NCBI GenBank assembly: GCA_948433435.1
Contig: CAOJDX010000013.1
Span: 1 to 38,800, forward strand
Direction of reading: 5' to 3'
Source of the DNA: an uncultured Clostridia bacterium
GTDB taxonomy: Bacteria; Bacillota_I; Bacilli_A; RF39; UBA660
DNA: 38,800 nt
In this document: positions 23,778 to 31,308 of the stretch, in pieces
Numbering within the stretch: the stretch's first letter is position 1
Layout: each line of letters begins with the position of its first letter
Translations under genes and position numbers: made by a program
Notes under the pieces: model-generated
Databases searched by the model: none
What the model was told of the DNA's origin: nothing
The model's input: only the letters and a program-made list of their open reading frames with translations

Positions 23778-24581
23778 TTACTTTTTAAAATTTAATTCAA
23801 GTTTTCCAATTCCACCCTCTACTTCTATTTTATGACTACCACTTCCATAAACAGTTTGGTTAGAATATTGTTGACCATTAATAGTAACATTCCCTAAACC
23901 TTTTTCGGCAAAAATTGTATAATCTTTCTCTTCTCCTAGTAGCATAATACTAATTTCTCCTACACCACACTCAATTTTATTAACTCCTGTAATATAAGCT
24001 TCAATATCAATCTTACCAACTCCACCATCTATATCTAAATGATTTAAGACCGAAGACCTAATTTCAGTTTTACCTACACCACTATCAATTGCTGTTGTTA
24101 AAAATTTAGAGTTAAGTATTTTAAGATAACCTACACCACAATCTATATCTAGTTGATTAGCCATAATACCATCAAGTTCTATTTCTCCAATACCACCATC
24201 TATATCTAAATCACCCATCTCACCTCTAGGTACATAAATAGTTATTTCTCCCTTTTGATGGTGACCAAAAAGCCATTTTTTCTTTTCTTCAATTTCTAAA
24301 GTGTTTCCTTTTTTTTGAACAGAGAACCCTTGATCAATACCATTTGCTTCTACTTTCCAAACCGTTCCTTCTTGAATTCTAATATTGGATTTAGTTAAAT
24401 CTACATCAACATTTTGAATATTTTGATAAATTTCTGAAAAATTTCTACTTTTTTGACGTTCTCCAATATGAAGATCTGTAAAAAGACCAAGCACTAGCAT
24501 AAAAGAACCAGCAATACTAACGATAATAAATATCGCTAAAAAAATAGCAAATGCCTTAATAATTTTTTGTATTTCTGTCAT
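23778..24581 (-). CDS. Membrane-anchored DUF4097-like beta-helical protein
   Basis: 267 residues. One membrane segment (about residues 8-33) is followed by a domain of short beta-repeats with recurring GG(V/I)G(E/K/Y) turns: DIDGGIGEIELDG, DIDCGVGYLKIL, IDSGVGKTEIR, DIDGGVGKIDIE, IECGVGEISIM. This is the pattern of the DUF4097 / putative adhesin beta-helix family often found with PspC, LiaF or anti-sigma-like modules. It overlaps the LiaF-like gene by four bases (ATGA), so the two are coupled. It probably faces outward and takes part in envelope stress sensing or signalling; this is inference. Confidence 0.8.
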   Translation of the reverse strand: MTEIQKIIKAFAIFLAIFIIVSIAGSFMLVLGLFTDLHIGERQKSRNFSEIYQNIQNVDVDLTKSNIRIQEGTVWKVEANGIDQGFSVQKKGNTLEIEEKKKWLFGHHQKGEITIYVPRGEMGDLDIDGGIGEIELDGIMANQLDIDCGVGYLKILNSKFLTTAIDSGVGKTEIRSSVLNHLDIDGGVGKIDIEAYITGVNKIECGVGEISIMLLGEEKDYTIFAEKGLGNVTINGQQYSNQTVYGSGSHKIEVEGGIGKLELNFKK

Positions 24582-25255
24582 TTTATCTCAATTCCTCCAA
24601 ACATACAAAAAGCTTCTATATAAATTGTTTTCTTAGATTCTGTTGAATTTAAAGCACTATTAGAAACGCCTCCAAAAATCGGAGTTGCTTTAACTTTGAT
24701 ATTAACATCATGTGGCACCAAAATAACTGCTCCTCCAAAAATAGCGCTAGCATCAATAACCATTTCATCTTCTAGTTTAGCCTTTCTTAAATCTAATACA
24801 ATATTTCCAAAAACTGAGTCAAGATTAGCACCTTTAAATTTCTCATTATCTTTATTAATTCTCTGTTCTGAGAATGTAGCAACAATTGTTTCTAAACCAT
24901 TTCCTTTTCCTTCTTTTACCTTTTTAGAAATTGTACTTTTAATTGTGCTATTAAAAATCATCGATAACCCTATTGCAATAAAGATAAGTGGTACAATCAT
25001 TTTTACAATCACTTCAAAATCAATAACCCCTCTTGCTGCTAGTAATAAAAGAAGTCCAATAATAAAAACAACTAGATTTCCCATCTTTCCTTCATGTGTA
25101 TCAAACAAACTAATAAATGAAGGAACAATAATAAATAAAGTCCACCATCCTTCAAAAAAAATATCAATATTAGTCAAACCAAAACTATTAGTAGCTATCA
25201 CAACTCCTATTAAGACAAAAACCAATCCCCACAAAATTTTACTAAAATTCTTCAT
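24578..25255 (-). CDS. LiaF-like membrane protein
   Basis: 225 residues. About four membrane segments fill the N-terminal 100 residues (ILWGLVFVLIGVVIATNSFG is the first). The C-terminal domain carries ASAIFGGAVILVPHDVNIKV and ATPIFGGVSNS, the hallmark of the LiaF C-terminal (cell-wall antibiotic response) domain. LiaF restrains the LiaRS two-component system in Bacillus; no liaRS lies here, so the partner is missing or elsewhere. The frame opens at 25303, but the ATG at 25255 has an AAAGGAGAAAAA ribosome site. Coupled to the DUF4097-like gene. Confidence 0.85.
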   Translation of the reverse strand: MKNFSKILWGLVFVLIGVVIATNSFGLTNIDIFFEGWWTLFIIVPSFISLFDTHEGKMGNLVVFIIGLLLLLAARGVIDFEVIVKMIVPLIFIAIGLSMIFNSTIKSTISKKVKEGKGNGLETIVATFSEQRINKDNEKFKGANLDSVFGNIVLDLRKAKLEDEMVIDASAIFGGAVILVPHDVNIKVKATPIFGGVSNSALNSTESKKTIYIEAFCMFGGIEIK

Positions 25256-25344
25256 TTTTTCTCCTTTACTTAACCATTTAACTTTTTCACTTATTGACAT
25301 CAACCATCTTACTAACTAGTAACAAATAATAAATGAATGACTAT

Positions 25345-25408: not shown

Positions 25409-25975
25409 TTAAAACAATTCAATAAAGAAACTATAAAAAAGTAAAGCAAATGGTTTTCCTAATAAAATAATAAAAATAAACTTCCTTAAACTCATTTTAC
25501 TAACTCCCGCAATATAACATAACAAATCATCAGGAAATCCTGGTAGAAAAATTCCTAAAAAGAAAATTTTATCAAACTTATTTGTTTGAATATAACTTAA
25601 ATACTGATTAAGTGTTTCCTCTTTAAATATTTTTTTGACTAATTGAATCCCATATTTCCTAGAAAGAATAAAAGAAATAATCGAGCCTATAACTAAACCA
25701 ATATAATTATAAATAAAGCCCATAACAGCTCCAAATGCTAAAACCCCTGCAAGACAACTAGCTCCTCCTGGTATCACAGGAAAAACCACTTGAATAGCTT
25801 GTAAAAAAAGAAAAAATATTGGCGCAAATATACCTAATTGTTGAATATATTGAACCAAAATATTCTTATCCTCAAAAATCCCTAATTTCAAAGCATAAAC
25901 AATAAAAATTAAAAGCAACATTGTTACTATAACAGTTATCACTTTAAATATACTTTTTAATCTTTTTCCTTCCAT
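25409..25975 (-). CDS. TVP38/TMEM64 (SNARE-associated/DedA-like) membrane protein
   Basis: 188 residues with about five membrane segments. The family core is visible: VFPVIPGGASCLAGVLAFG (about 66-84), then SFILSRKYG (about 101-109) and the second half-repeat FLGIFLPGFPDDLLCYIAG. The paired reentrant loops with the Pro-Gly-Asp motif are typical of the VTT domain found in DedA and TMEM41B. Members are linked to lipid scrambling or membrane homeostasis; the bacterial role is not settled. GGGAGTG precedes the ATG. The neighbours suggest an envelope role. Confidence 0.88.
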   Translation of the reverse strand: MEGKRLKSIFKVITVIVTMLLLIFIVYALKLGIFEDKNILVQYIQQLGIFAPIFFLFLQAIQVVFPVIPGGASCLAGVLAFGAVMGFIYNYIGLVIGSIISFILSRKYGIQLVKKIFKEETLNQYLSYIQTNKFDKIFFLGIFLPGFPDDLLCYIAGVSKMSLRKFIFIILLGKPFALLFYSFFIELF

Positions 25976-26543: not shown

Positions 26544-26581
26544 AAAACAGCAATTAAAAGAAAAAGGATAATTGCTGTTTT
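26544..26581 (-). terminator. Terminator of the bce module
   Basis: A perfect 12-base stem (AAAACAGCAATT at 26544-26555 with AATTGCTGTTTT at 26570-26581) around a 14-base loop. Minus-strand reading ends in CTGTTTTCTATTTTG. It lies 38 bases after the stop of the 39-codon ORF and may work in both directions. Confidence 0.8.
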
Positions 26582-26619: not shown

Positions 26620-26739
26620 CTAACTTTCATCCTTTCTCTTTATACTGGCAAATAATATAAAAATAGTAAATAGAATCATAAATGGTAATAAGATCAAAAA
26701 AATATCTTGAATAACTTCTAAAAAGTCTTGCATATTCAT
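26620..26739 (-). CDS. Small single-pass membrane protein after bceB
   Basis: 39 residues beginning MNMQDFLEVIQDIF, then a hydrophobic stretch (LILLPFMILFTIFILFASI) and a charged end (KRKDES). It starts four bases after the bceB stop and ends before the module terminator, so it belongs to the same transcript. No strong ribosome site is visible, so it would rely on coupling to bceB. The size, the single helix and the position suggest a small accessory subunit or modulator of the BceAB transporter. I know no such conserved partner by this sequence. An inner ATG at 26733 is the alternative start. Confidence 0.55.
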   Translation of the reverse strand: MNMQDFLEVIQDIFLILLPFMILFTIFILFASIKRKDES

Positions 26740-26743
26740 CAAA

Positions 26744-28786
26744 TTATCGATCTTTAATAATATTTTTACTACAAACATAGGTAATTAGGAAATAACCTCC
26801 ATAAATAATTACAATAAATACTGCCGTCATAATAATAGATGGTAATAACTGATCGTTTCCAAAAGTTTCTAATATAGTATTACAAAACATTATGCCAAAA
26901 ATTGAATGAATAATTGCAATTACTAGAGGAAACATGAAGAAAATAGCTATCTGCCTAAATAAAGCTTGATGAATCATTTTCTCATCTGTTCCTATTTTTC
27001 TTAACATTCTAAATCTTTCTTTATTATCACTACTTTCTGATAATTCTTTTAATGCCAAAATAGCTGCACTACTAATTAAGAAAATAATTCCTAAATAAAG
27101 ACCAATAAAAGTAACCAAACCACCTAACCCAATACTAGCTTCAGCAATTTCCAATTTTGTATTGATACTAATTAAACTGGTATTATCCCAAATTTTATCT
27201 ACTACATCACGTAATTCTAAGTCAAACTTACTTCTTTCTTCTTTTGCTGTCTTCACATAATTTGCTAATAAACCCTTATATCCAATATTCAAGTCTACTA
27301 CTGCACTATCTGGTACTATTATAATTCCATCATTAATATGATTTGAGGAAATTTCAATAAATCCTATCTGACATTCCTGATATTTAGGATAATAAGAAAC
27401 ATGACTAATTACTAATGGTTGATTCCTCTTTAATGCCTCATTCCTAATCTCTATCATACTATTAAAATCAGCAACAATCATATATTCATTTTCGTTTAAC
27501 TGATACTGCTCATTACCATATAACTTGGCAATTTTATTATAATCGCTAATCTTAATAATTCTTTCTAATTTTTCATATCCTAAATATTTATATTTAGTAG
27601 AAACTTCAGCAAAACTATCCCCTAACATCCTTCCCAAAGTTACAGTAACATCTTCATAAATGTTAAACTCAATAACATCTTTTAATTTTTCATCAATATC
27701 ATAATCATTTTTTTTCAAAGTTTCCTTAATAGATAAATCATAATCAGCAATAATATCTGGTTTATCAATATCTGTTGCAATAATTTTAGTCAATTGAACA
27801 TCAACAGGGGCTAATTCTTCTAGATTACTAGTCATAGAATTTTTTATAGATAAAGATGAAGAAAGTACACATATTGTAACGAATAACATTAAACAAATAA
27901 TAGTCATTGAAAACACAGTAGTATTAATCTTACTACTAAATTGCCTTAGAATAAAACTGTTTAAGCCCTTATAATAAACTTTTTTCATATTGGTAAATAT
28001 TCTAAGAAGTAGACCTGATAATGACCAGAAAATAAAGAAAGTGGAAACTACTCCCATAACCATAGGAATCAATATCTGATTAGCATTTTGAAGCTTCTCG
28101 ACACCTCCTGTCACTAAGTAATAAGCAACTCCTAAAACAGTCGCAAAAACAATGAAAATAATAGTACAAAAAATAGGATTTTTTAGTTTAATTCTTTCTG
28201 AATGTTTATGACCATGTAATAAATCAATTAATTTACATTTACTAATATTTACTGCATTAAAAATCATTACCAGTAAATACATCAGTCCAAAATAAATCAA
28301 GCATTTAATACAAGCACTCATCGAAAAAATAAATTGAAATCTAGTAATATCAGCCTCAAACATATTAGCAACTAACATACTCATAAATTGAGATAATATA
28401 AAACCAATTACCAGACCAACTATTAAGGAAATAATACCAATTACCAAGGTTTCTATAAATAGAATAAAGGATATTTTTCTTTTACTCATCCCTAAAGTCA
28501 AATAAATACCAAACTCTTTTTTTCTTCTTTTGATCAAAAATCTACTAGCATAAATAATTAAAAGGCCTAAAATAAAAGAAACAAAAACACTAACCCCTGC
28601 CAACATATTATTCATCAGTTTAATGATATCATATGTTGATTTGGAAACATTCATCATCACCGTTTGACTATCTATAGCATTAAAAACATAGAAAATAGCC
28701 ACTCCTAGTATTAAGGTGAAAAAATAAATAGCATAATCTTTTACACTTTTTTGAATGTTTTTTAAAGAAAGTTTAAAGAGCATCAT
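26744..28786 (-). CDS. bceB: BceB-type ABC transporter permease
   Basis: 680 residues with the BceB layout: about ten membrane helices, FtsX-like domains at both ends, and a large outer domain (about residues 310-540) between helices seven and eight. The N-terminus MMLFKLSLKNIQKSVKDYAI and the RRKKEFGIYLTLGMSKRKI loop (about 88-106) are characteristic. These permeases recognise peptide antibiotics such as bacitracin or lantibiotics in complex with lipid precursors, free the target, and signal flux to the BceS kinase. It overlaps bceA by 14 bases. The actual peptide cannot be read from sequence. Confidence 0.93.
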   Translation of the reverse strand: MMLFKLSLKNIQKSVKDYAIYFFTLILGVAIFYVFNAIDSQTVMMNVSKSTYDIIKLMNNMLAGVSVFVSFILGLLIIYASRFLIKRRKKEFGIYLTLGMSKRKISFILFIETLVIGIISLIVGLVIGFILSQFMSMLVANMFEADITRFQFIFSMSACIKCLIYFGLMYLLVMIFNAVNISKCKLIDLLHGHKHSERIKLKNPIFCTIIFIVFATVLGVAYYLVTGGVEKLQNANQILIPMVMGVVSTFFIFWSLSGLLLRIFTNMKKVYYKGLNSFILRQFSSKINTTVFSMTIICLMLFVTICVLSSSLSIKNSMTSNLEELAPVDVQLTKIIATDIDKPDIIADYDLSIKETLKKNDYDIDEKLKDVIEFNIYEDVTVTLGRMLGDSFAEVSTKYKYLGYEKLERIIKISDYNKIAKLYGNEQYQLNENEYMIVADFNSMIEIRNEALKRNQPLVISHVSYYPKYQECQIGFIEISSNHINDGIIIVPDSAVVDLNIGYKGLLANYVKTAKEERSKFDLELRDVVDKIWDNTSLISINTKLEIAEASIGLGGLVTFIGLYLGIIFLISSAAILALKELSESSDNKERFRMLRKIGTDEKMIHQALFRQIAIFFMFPLVIAIIHSIFGIMFCNTILETFGNDQLLPSIIMTAVFIVIIYGGYFLITYVCSKNIIKDR

Positions 28787-29543
28787 TTAAATCACCACCA
28801 AGTAAAGTTACTACATCAATAATCTGATCAAAAAATTCTTTTCTAGAACTATTTCCCTTATTAATCTCATTAAAAATCTTTCCATCCTTAATAAAAATTA
28901 CTCGAGAGGCATAAGAAGCCGTAAAAGCATCATGAGTTACCATCAGAATTGTTGCAGTCAATTCTTGATTTAAATAATGAAATCTTTCCAATAACATTTT
29001 TGAAGACTTAGAATCTAAAGCCCCAGTAGGTTCATCAGCTAATACTAATTTAGGATTTGTAATAATTGCTCTAGCAGCAGCTACTCTCTGTTTTTGACCT
29101 CCACTCATTTGATAAGGATACTTTTTTAAAACATTCTTAATATCCAAGTCTTCTGTTACCCTTTTAATTCGCTGATCTATTTCTTTGATATCGATATTTT
29201 GAATAGATAAGGCTAAAGCAATATTTTCATATGCTGTTAATGTATCTAATAAGTTAAAATCTTGAAAGATAAACCCTAATTCCTCTCTTCTAAATTTATT
29301 CAAGTGATTTCCTTTTAATTTTGTAATATCTTCACCCGCCACATAAATATGTCCACTTGTTACTTTATCTATTGTCGAAATAACGTTTAAAAGAGTTGTT
29401 TTTCCAGAACCACTCGCACCCATAATGGCAACAAACTCTCCTTTGTCCACTTCAAATGAAATATTGTCAATAGCTTTTGTTAATGAAGATCGAGTCCCAT
29501 AATATTTTTCTATTTGAGATATTTTTAAAATATTTTCTTTCAT
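28773..29543 (-). CDS. bceA: BceA-type ABC transporter ATP-binding protein
   Basis: 256 residues of the MacB/LolD/BceA type. Walker A is GASGSGKTT (about 42-50), the Q-loop is FIFQDFNLLDTLTAYEN, the signature is MSGGQKQRVAAARA, Walker B is LVLADEPTGALDS and the switch His is in MVTHDA. It powers the BceB permease encoded next to it. AAGGAGG precedes the ATG. A BceR-box-like palindrome 70 bases upstream suggests separate induction from bceRS. Confidence 0.95.
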   Translation of the reverse strand: MKENILKISQIEKYYGTRSSLTKAIDNISFEVDKGEFVAIMGASGSGKTTLLNVISTIDKVTSGHIYVAGEDITKLKGNHLNKFRREELGFIFQDFNLLDTLTAYENIALALSIQNIDIKEIDQRIKRVTEDLDIKNVLKKYPYQMSGGQKQRVAAARAIITNPKLVLADEPTGALDSKSSKMLLERFHYLNQELTATILMVTHDAFTASYASRVIFIKDGKIFNEINKGNSSRKEFFDQIIDVVTLLGGDLNDAL

Positions 29544-29612: not shown

Positions 29613-29626
29613 TTACAATTTTGTAA
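29613..29626 (-). promoter_or_regulatory. BceR-box-like inverted repeat upstream of bceA
   Basis: TTACA-ATTT-TGTAA is a perfect palindrome and an exact match to the TNACA-N4-TGTAA consensus that I recall for BceR-type regulators. It lies in the only gap within the module, between bceS and bceA, 70 bases before the bceA start. A weak -10 (TATTAT) follows near 29564-29569. Confidence 0.75.
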
Positions 29627-29632
29627 GTTACT

Positions 29633-30649
29633 TTACTTAATCACATCATAATATTTATTTTTAGAAAAGATAATCAATACTTTAGTGTAATTATTTTTTT
29701 GAGATTCAATCTTTATTTTATGCCCTAATTTATGACATAAAGAATGGACAATAAATAGACCCATTCCTGTCGATCTTGATTTAATTCTACCATTTTGCCC
29801 CGTAAATGACTTTTCAAATACTCGTGCTATATCAGTCTCAGGAATTCCTATTCCGTTGTCTTTAATTACTAAAGTTACCTGCTGCTCATCTTCCACTACA
29901 GATATTTTAATATATGAATGAATGTTCTCTTGTCTATATTTAATACTATTATTGATAATTTGATTCAAAATAAACTCTATCCATTTAGAATCAGTCAAAA
30001 CTTGACAGGAAATATCCTCTACTATCAAGTCTATTTTGTATTCCAGAAGATCATCTTTATTTTTTAAAGCAACATTATTGATAATCTTATTTAAATTAAT
30101 CGCCTTAATTAAATAATCTTTTTCTGCATTTTCACTTCTTACATAATATAAAACCTGTTCTAAATAGCTTTCAATCCTCCTAATTTGCTCACTTAAAATT
30201 TTATCATCTGTTTGATTATTATGTAACATTAAAATTAAACTAGCCAAAGGAATTTTTACTTCATGAATCCACATTTCAATATATTCTTTAAAATCATTCA
30301 TTTGTAATTCTAATGTTTTTACAAACTCATTCATTGATTTATTAATATCATATAAAGCTTGATACAATATTTTCCCTTCATAAAAAGTGGGTTTTTGAAT
30401 TACCTCTAATACTAGATAACTTTTTTCTAATAATTCAATATTTCTCAATAATTCCCGATAAAATTTTTTCTTTTGATAATAATCAATCAATACATACAAA
30501 AAATTAGTTACAACTAAAATTAACAAAACAGCAATTAATAGACTTTTTTCTACTTTAAAAGCTAGTAACATTAATAAAATAATGAACAAACTTAAAATAA
30601 AAATTCCAATAAGAAACATTTTATCTTTAAAATAATCCTTAAAATTCAT
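29633..30649 (-). CDS. bceS: BceS-type intramembrane-sensing histidine kinase
   Basis: 338 residues. Two membrane helices (about 12-30 and 33-53) are joined by only a couple of residues, so there is no outer sensor domain; this is the intramembrane-sensing design that takes its signal from BceAB. The phospho-acceptor is in MWIHEVKIPLASL (about 126-138). The ATPase domain has NQIINNSIKYR (N box), DNGIGIP (G1) and STGMGLFI (G2). It overlaps bceR by four bases (ATGA). Confidence 0.93.
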   Translation of the reverse strand: MNFKDYFKDKMFLIGIFILSLFIILLMLLAFKVEKSLLIAVLLILVVTNFLYVLIDYYQKKKFYRELLRNIELLEKSYLVLEVIQKPTFYEGKILYQALYDINKSMNEFVKTLELQMNDFKEYIEMWIHEVKIPLASLILMLHNNQTDDKILSEQIRRIESYLEQVLYYVRSENAEKDYLIKAINLNKIINNVALKNKDDLLEYKIDLIVEDISCQVLTDSKWIEFILNQIINNSIKYRQENIHSYIKISVVEDEQQVTLVIKDNGIGIPETDIARVFEKSFTGQNGRIKSRSTGMGLFIVHSLCHKLGHKIKIESQKNNYTKVLIIFSKNKYYDVIK

Positions 30650-31308
30650 ACTAAAATATAGCCCTGTCCCTTTCTTGTCTGAATAATTTCTTCATAGCCA
30701 ACTTCTCTTAATTTCGTTCTTAATCTACTAATATTTACAGTTAAAGCATTATCATTAATATATTCATTATTATTCCACAAATCAGTCATTAATTCATCAC
30801 GAGTAACGATTCTATTTTGATTATTCAATAAATAGTTAAAAATAATCATTTCATTCTTGGTAAGAACCACTTCCTGACTACCTCTGATAATTATTCCTTT
30901 TTGAACATTGATACTTAAATCTTTATATGTCTCTACTATAGAAGGTTTTTCCATTCTTTTAAATATAGCACCAATTCTTAAAAGCAGAATAGTTGGATTA
31001 TATGGTTTAGTAATATAATCATCAGCTCCATAAGAGATAGACAATACCTCATCTATTTCTGTATTTCTACTAGTAACCATAATAACTGGAAGATTAGACT
31101 CCTTTCGTATTTCCTGGAGTAATAATTCTCCATTGATATAAGGAATATTAATATCTAATAAAATTAAATCTGGTAATAATTTAAATATTTTCTCTTTAGC
31201 ATTGTGAAACTCTTTTAAAATAAAAGGTTGATATCCTGAATTTTCTAATAGTGTAGCTAGCTCTAGACATAAACTCTGATCATCTTCTATAATTAAAATC
31301 TTTTTCAT
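30646..31308 (-). CDS. bceR: BceR-type response regulator (OmpR/PhoB class)
   Basis: 220 residues. The receiver domain has the acidic pair near the start (IIEDDQS), the phosphorylated Asp in LILLDINIP (about 51), Thr in MVTSR and Lys in TKPYN. The C-terminal winged helix ends with RTKLREVGYEEIIQTRKGQG. It would bind the palindrome at 29613-29626 and switch on bceAB. The promoter upstream is an extended -10 at 31332-31340; GAGGAGATAGGGT precedes the ATG. Confidence 0.93.
   Translation of the reverse strand: MKKILIIEDDQSLCLELATLLENSGYQPFILKEFHNAKEKIFKLLPDLILLDINIPYINGELLLQEIRKESNLPVIMVTSRNTEIDEVLSISYGADDYITKPYNPTILLLRIGAIFKRMEKPSIVETYKDLSINVQKGIIIRGSQEVVLTKNEMIIFNYLLNNQNRIVTRDELMTDLWNNNEYINDNALTVNISRLRTKLREVGYEEIIQTRKGQGYILV

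Follow-up and report, generated by a model that had tools for sequence, protein, structure and literature searches.

A 38,800-nt stretch of DNA from an uncultured Clostridia bacterium, referred to here as the window, carries a bceB-type permease gene that is followed directly by an open reading frame of only 39 codons, and the question raised by this locus is whether so short a frame is a gene at all and, if so, what its product would contribute to the Bce peptide-antibiotic module behind which it lies. The neighbouring genes form a Bce-type module, comprising a BceB-related FtsX-type permease with an adjoining ATPase, a sensor kinase and an OmpR-type response regulator, arranged in the order bceR, bceS, bceA, bceB, small ORF and likely terminator (Table 1). 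In phmmer comparisons, the permease matches B. subtilis BceB (7tcg) with E=1.4e-29 and PsdB (9ugg) with E=1.8e-23.

Table 1. Features of the bce locus, in coordinates of the window
Feature	Position	Strand	Remarks
Likely intrinsic terminator hairpin	26544-26581	-	13 bp, A+T-rich stem, 12-base loop, U-rich sequence behind
Small ORF, single-pass membrane protein gene	26620-26739	-	39 codons + stop
Small ORF frame with alternative upstream ATG	26620-26778	-	52 aa; ATG at 26778, inside bceB
AAAGA, sole Shine-Dalgarno-like stretch seen, weak	26751-26755	-	no GGAGG
bceB-type permease	26744-28786	-	680 aa, FtsX domains; Pfam FtsX E=2.5e-18
bceA-type ATPase	28773-29543	-	256 aa; ABC_tran E=2.6e-36
Palindrome TTACA-N4-TGTAA, putative operator	29613-29626		bceS-bceA gap
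bceS-type sensor kinase	29633-30649	-	338 aa; domain matches
bceR-type response regulator	30646-31308	-	220 aa; domain matches

A preliminary description of this DNA had placed the small ORF inside the operon, starting four bases past bceB behind a weak ribosome site, and all of this was borne out, with a 4-nt gap between the end of bceB and the start codon, a likely terminator hairpin 38 nt past the stop codon and AAAGA, rather than any GGAGG, ahead of the ORF. The 111-nt stretch containing the hairpin folds with -19.5 kcal/mol (z = -2.99), a value equalled by 2 of 200 shuffles; the hairpin, whose stem is A+T-rich, is not listed by a consensus terminator scan. It is likely an intrinsic terminator closing the operon. 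Starts of the related ORFs described below overlap or lie near the bceB stop (-17 to +29 nt), and hence the alternative ATG at 26778 is the less likely start, while translation of the small ORF is probably coupled to that of bceB. The palindrome TTACA-N4-TGTAA precedes bceA in 56 of the 70 loci with enough upstream sequence, including 12 of the 16 that carry the ORF, and occurs in none of 70 control stretches within bceB. BceR and GraR are both reported as binding to inverted repeats (PMC3128592). The palindrome is thus likely a response-regulator operator for bceA, bceB and the small ORF, which suggests that the ORF is most likely induced together with the transporter.

Beyond the terminator, a gene for a VTT-domain (DedA/TVP38-type) membrane protein is found at 25409-25975 (minus strand), and a gene similar to it by eye directly follows a bceB paralogue at another locus (L099). 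DedA-type proteins handle undecaprenyl phosphate, and such a gene near a bce module would fit bacitracin-type resistance. Further on, a LiaF-like protein with LiaF-TM and LiaF C-terminal domains is encoded at 23778-25303 (minus strand) together with a DUF4097 gene, and the two may form another unit for cell-envelope stress close to the bce genes. The same genome contains a second bceB-type module (L095, G000:C8:9500-14500), with a permease 28% identical and a response-regulator gene behind it. Over 4625 nt, this module shares 88.2% identity with a plasmid record of Clostridioides difficile (L190, NZ_CP149683.1), which suggests that it was transferred.

Whether the ORF belongs to a family was addressed by reading the sequence behind bceB. 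As a lone query the 39-residue peptide gave matches in 60 of 193 genomes at E <= 1, mostly noise, its own copy alone being strong, even if one such match (in G142) turned out to lie behind bceB. From 156 bceB loci entered, the majority belonging to the window's own GTDB family, 144 were kept after dropping six duplicates, three loci without the C-terminus and three with too little downstream sequence. The matching criterion, fixed after the family had been seen, called for 27-53 codons, a single strongly hydrophobic stretch, a basic tail and a start within -17 to +29 nt of the bceB stop. Such ORFs were found behind 22 of the 144 distinct bceB ends, the window included and nearly all from its own GTDB family, with identical peptides in three (L103, L104 and L105); by the same criterion, no such ORF followed any of 426 other long-ORF ends in the collected loci, and 7 of 5760 shuffles of the downstream sequence produced one. 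The presence of a small ORF after bceB is more than chance.

Sequence relatedness was assessed with leave-one-group-out profiles run over 25,869 frames drawn from roughly 1 Mb of sequence. A profile built without the window's ORF recovered it with E = 5.4e-4, no frame away from bceB stops scoring better, and, if the duplicate entry of the window's ORF is disregarded, the same was true of 9 of the 11 groups left out in turn. When L004 was left out, it scored weakly (E = 0.32) behind five frames from elsewhere, including the window's own ORF and the Priestia peptide discussed below. The L103/L113/L115 group, representing 5 of the 26 family loci, went unrecovered by a profile built without L103-type peptides, and its inclusion in the family rests on position and on a D-x-WLP stretch that it has in common with L170 and L171. 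In a held-out test, the profile was frozen before new loci from an order-wide search were fetched, and 4 of 27 such loci (L233, L246, L234 and L236, with L234 and L236 near-identical) matched with E values of 3.5e-19 to 8.8e-10, the next frame having E = 0.03. Thus, 26 of 171 distinct loci carry the family ORF, and the search for similarly sized single-helix ORFs behind bceB in related genomes, proposed in the preliminary description, gave a positive answer. The small ORF appears to be a genuine gene that related genomes have kept; those relatives that are named are metagenome bins labelled uncultured Clostridia, Bacilli and similar.

Selection on the frame was estimated from pairs among these relatives; the window's copy falls outside the estimate, its sole close relative being broken. 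Values of pN/pS were 0.10-0.52 in 15 of 16 pairs, the sixteenth differing at one position, and lay clearly below those of both other frames in 13. As for the other three, the ORF frame was level with one other frame in L016/L120, above one in L016/L162 and uninformative in L103/L105, so that two of the three pairs from the most diverged group (L016/L120/L162) have some other frame that does equally well. The 16 pairs represent five groups, four of which are clear, and four later pairs gave pN/pS of 0.05-0.51 without a frame control. Across most related pairs, the frame is under purifying selection.

The small ORF is an optional part of the module, since 145 of the 171 loci lack an intact copy and the copy in a genus-mate is broken. 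On a BceB tree of 122 rows built by a quick method, its distribution needs at least 12 gains or losses, whereas shuffled labels averaged 19.6 and in none of 500 shuffles came down to that number, and hence the ORF follows descent, yet has been frequently lost or gained. Within the window's own BceB clade of seven rows, four have an intact copy (L002, L004, L133 and L134), two have none (L005 and L006) and one, the nearest relative L003 from the same genus with 82% BceB identity, has the broken copy. The close relative L118 lacks the ORF cleanly and retains the terminator-like stretch that trails the ORF in its sisters. Behind bceB in L126, a copy interrupted by one in-frame stop reflects either decay or an assembly error.

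Outside the GTDB family, no member was established in 26 loci (L193-L218), taken from 26 of the 40 matching genomes in a phylum sample of 392; the frames of these loci also formed part of the background against which the leave-out profiles were run. Matches were also obtained in 47 plasmid records, of which 13 were opened, 12 of these being annotated. Directly behind the permease, 10 of the 12 annotated records list no small gene in tables known to be incomplete, an annotated Paenibacillus record has YxeA, and the unannotated Niallia record contains no family-type ORF. A Priestia aryabhattai plasmid (L189:2104-2244, P0003) has an annotated 46-aa hypothetical protein 17 nt behind a bceB-type gene, which resembles the family in plan, with WWLP and a basic tail, and was among the five best frames from other loci in one leave-out profile. 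Ranking 65th, 110th and 471st under three alignments, it is unsupported as a homologue. Other small hydrophobic ORFs, matching nothing in the family, lie behind bceB in L062 and L248.

The product of the window's ORF, MNMQDFLEVIQDIFLILLPFMILFTIFILFASIKRKDES (39 residues, minus strand), is predicted from its single sequence to form one helix spanning residues 3-38 with a mean pLDDT of 94.9, and has one hydrophobic segment and a basic tail (KRK), in keeping with the single helix with a charged end proposed initially. In 21 of 21 peptides compared (20 family rows plus that of Priestia, the charge table being made without the four later loci and two L103 copies), the charge is more positive in the C-terminal part than in the N-terminal one, and by the positive-inside rule the N-terminus is predicted to lie outside and the basic tail inside. 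A proline at the point of membrane entry is present in 21 of the 26 loci and absent from the five L103-type loci. Variation by column was counted for 14 of 18 peptides lined up, after removal of four near-duplicates, with L103-type peptides and further near-copies left out; the peptides were anchored on the proline, whose invariance in this count is therefore by construction. Columns 4, 8 and 12 after the proline (L, F and A) are the least variable three of columns 1-14, with K/R at column 15. This P-L-F-A pattern, recurring at every fourth residue and noticed post hoc, is a candidate one-sided stripe of the kind used in helix packing; a test for helical periodicity was not significant (p = 0.234).

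The slot behind bceB is also used by larger genes, and several relatives without the ORF have there a YxeA-like or VanZ-like gene, the VanZ-like proteins moreover starting with a helix that bears FP near its beginning, from which the small ORF might be taken for a remnant or signal-anchor stub of such a gene. However, six loci (L071, L133, L134, L170, L171 and L173) have the ORF and, behind it, a VanZ-like gene, with the held-out locus L233 a further case, and six others (L083, L120, L136, L137, L143 and L162) have the ORF ahead of a YxeA-like gene; Pfam confirmed VanZ for L134 and DUF1093 for L136, the other neighbours being assigned by likeness. With both genes present in these 12 loci, the ORF is not a fragment of either. 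Profile-profile comparison by hhalign was negative as well, giving five aligned columns, 1% probability and E = 0.056 against VanZ-like N-termini and 5.5% probability and a pairwise E of 0.007 against YxeA-like N-termini; Pfam detected neither DUF1093 nor VanZ in the window's ORF, and the predicted N-out, basic-tail charge pattern is the reverse of that of a signal anchor. Derivation from either gene is thus largely refuted by the double loci and retains hardly any probability. Searches of the window's ORF, the Priestia look-alike and four further members with Pfam and NCBIfam models gave nothing above cut-off. The best sub-threshold match was that of the L115 peptide to NF045849, a pilin-like conjugal transfer protein (E = 5.3e-5, 22.8 bits, cut-off 40); the same peptide matched PF16959 (E = 0.0039), and the window's peptide had best matches at E = 0.031 (NCBIfam) and 0.11 (Pfam); these sub-threshold matches were taken for chance similarity of hydrophobic sequence. 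L113 and L115 share yet another ORF behind the small one (68-70 aa, MIKNKENFIITIKYLISL...), and its L115 version gave no Pfam match.

VraH of the S. aureus VraDEH system, reportedly the subject of Popella et al. 2016, is the closest known counterpart in position. It was stated initially that no such member is known in the standard Bce module, a claim that does not hold in view of VraH (PMC5786555, PMC5985334, PMC10846014, PMC7438565), YxeA/YsaD (PMC7438565) and LugI (PMC7927808). VraH is described as a small membrane protein whose gene lies behind vraE; it is required for high gallidermin and daptomycin resistance and interacts with the transporter (PMC5786555, PMC5985334, PMC10846014, PMC7438565), and it matters for gallidermin and not for nisin or bacitracin (PMC5786555); with an effect limited to some peptides, a small effect of the ORF described here could likewise be missed. 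The two share their place directly behind a bceB-type permease gene, as an extra part of some Bce-type transporters, and a cytoplasmic basic C-terminal tail, predicted in the case of the small ORF peptide. However, VraH, by its published description, has two membrane helices with both ends in the cytoplasm (PMC5985334) and a tail YYKRREEKGK (PMC5786555), whereas the present family has one helix with a predicted outside N-terminus, and the window's peptide ends in the basic KRK without that motif. Because VraH has two helices with both ends inside, the family is not filed as VraH, and Pfam and NCBIfam offered no model above cut-off by which a VraH homologue could be recognized.

Similarly, LugI of S. 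lugdunensis lugIEFGH is a small accessory membrane protein that raises the resistance conferred by neighbouring ABC transporters, and is said to be VraH-like in size and topology with no obvious sequence similarity (PMC7927808); it differs in that its gene heads the name of an operon that belongs to a biosynthesis cluster and is not a Bce module with its own kinase. YxeA/YsaD (DUF1093) proteins are small accessory proteins using the same operon slot in several relatives, and YsaD of a Bce-like module, according to PMC7438565, altered signalling while being dispensable for resistance. They are distinguished by a length of about 110 residues, an exported part, a Pfam DUF1093 match (one tested) and a place behind the mini-protein where both occur. 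VanZ-like membrane proteins, too, occupy the slot downstream of bceB in a number of relatives, with about 195-370 residues and a Pfam VanZ match (one tested), and again stand behind the mini-protein. A literature search whose reach mostly excluded subscription papers found no single-pass family behind bceB.

Taken by analogy with these systems, the small ORF is probably translated into an accessory subunit of the Bce module, one that spans the membrane once and tunes BceAB or BceS. The choice of BceB or BceS as partner would follow from synteny and analogy; an accessory subunit of BceAB is favoured, and modulation of the transporter by the peptide, as suggested initially, is plausible. The main rival holds that the peptide acts on the kinase, as a single-pass feedback regulator of BceS made together with the transporter and damping or holding its signal. 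MgrB acts on PhoQ, and to it the peptide may be likened with its one helix, predicted outside N-terminus and basic inside tail; the location of the ORF behind a putatively operator-controlled bceAB unit also suits a feedback role, as does the altered signalling caused by YsaD, which is dispensable for resistance (PMC7438565). However, the ORF is encoded behind bceB and not behind bceS, and VraH, its nearest analogue, contacts the transporter (PMC5786555, PMC5985334), so that a regulator of BceS is considered unlikely, albeit worth weighing.

Two further readings were considered. The window's copy might go untranslated, as a chance frame or a decaying copy, with the gene working in relatives, and the weak ribosome site and the broken copy in the genus-mate speak for this; against it, the frame is intact with its proline, stripe and tail, is recovered by the profile built without it, and is accompanied by the ORF in L004 and L133 of the same clade, which renders such decay improbable. 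Alternatively, the peptide's small size, hydrophobicity and basic tail, along with the patchy occurrence of the ORF and its broken copies, recall a membrane-active toxin of a type I toxin-antitoxin system or another selfish small gene. Since most loci have the ORF adjoining or overlapping bceB, and the window has it enclosed between bceB and the terminator, and no well-scoring second copy was found in the genome (with a weak single-peptide query, and a family search centred on bceB), a toxin is very improbable.

For the favoured accessory subunit of BceAB, a course of events can be proposed in which the ORF would be carried on the bceA-bceB transcript, with the response regulator probably inducing it via TTACA-N4-TGTAA, and would be translated through coupling to the bceB stop. 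The peptide would insert with its N-terminus outside, the helix running to the membrane-entry proline and the basic tail in the cytoplasm; translation of the window's copy, its topology and its induction are all deduced from the sequence. The P-L-F-A stripe may then pack on one of the membrane helices of BceB, where BceB meets BceS or close by, and the peptide would adjust either the range of substrates or the flux signal that reaches the kinase, as VraH does for VraDE. A bolder proposal, offered as speculation, is that the ORFs define an undescribed family of single-pass Bce subunits, so far from one family of uncultured Bacillota, which dock by the stripe at the BceB-BceS contact and set the conversion of flux to kinase signal, a removable checkpoint that modules would gain and lose.

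The solved Bce structures (7tcg, 8g3a and others) generally show the transporter with or without the kinase. Should a tiny helix serve some lineages as an optional extra subunit, measurements of substrate range and signalling that leave it out may be misleading, and genes this short can be missed by annotation. How an accessory helix might tune a flux sensor could be approached through this family, for which an alignment already exists, together with a putative contact stripe and natural pairs of modules with and without the helix.
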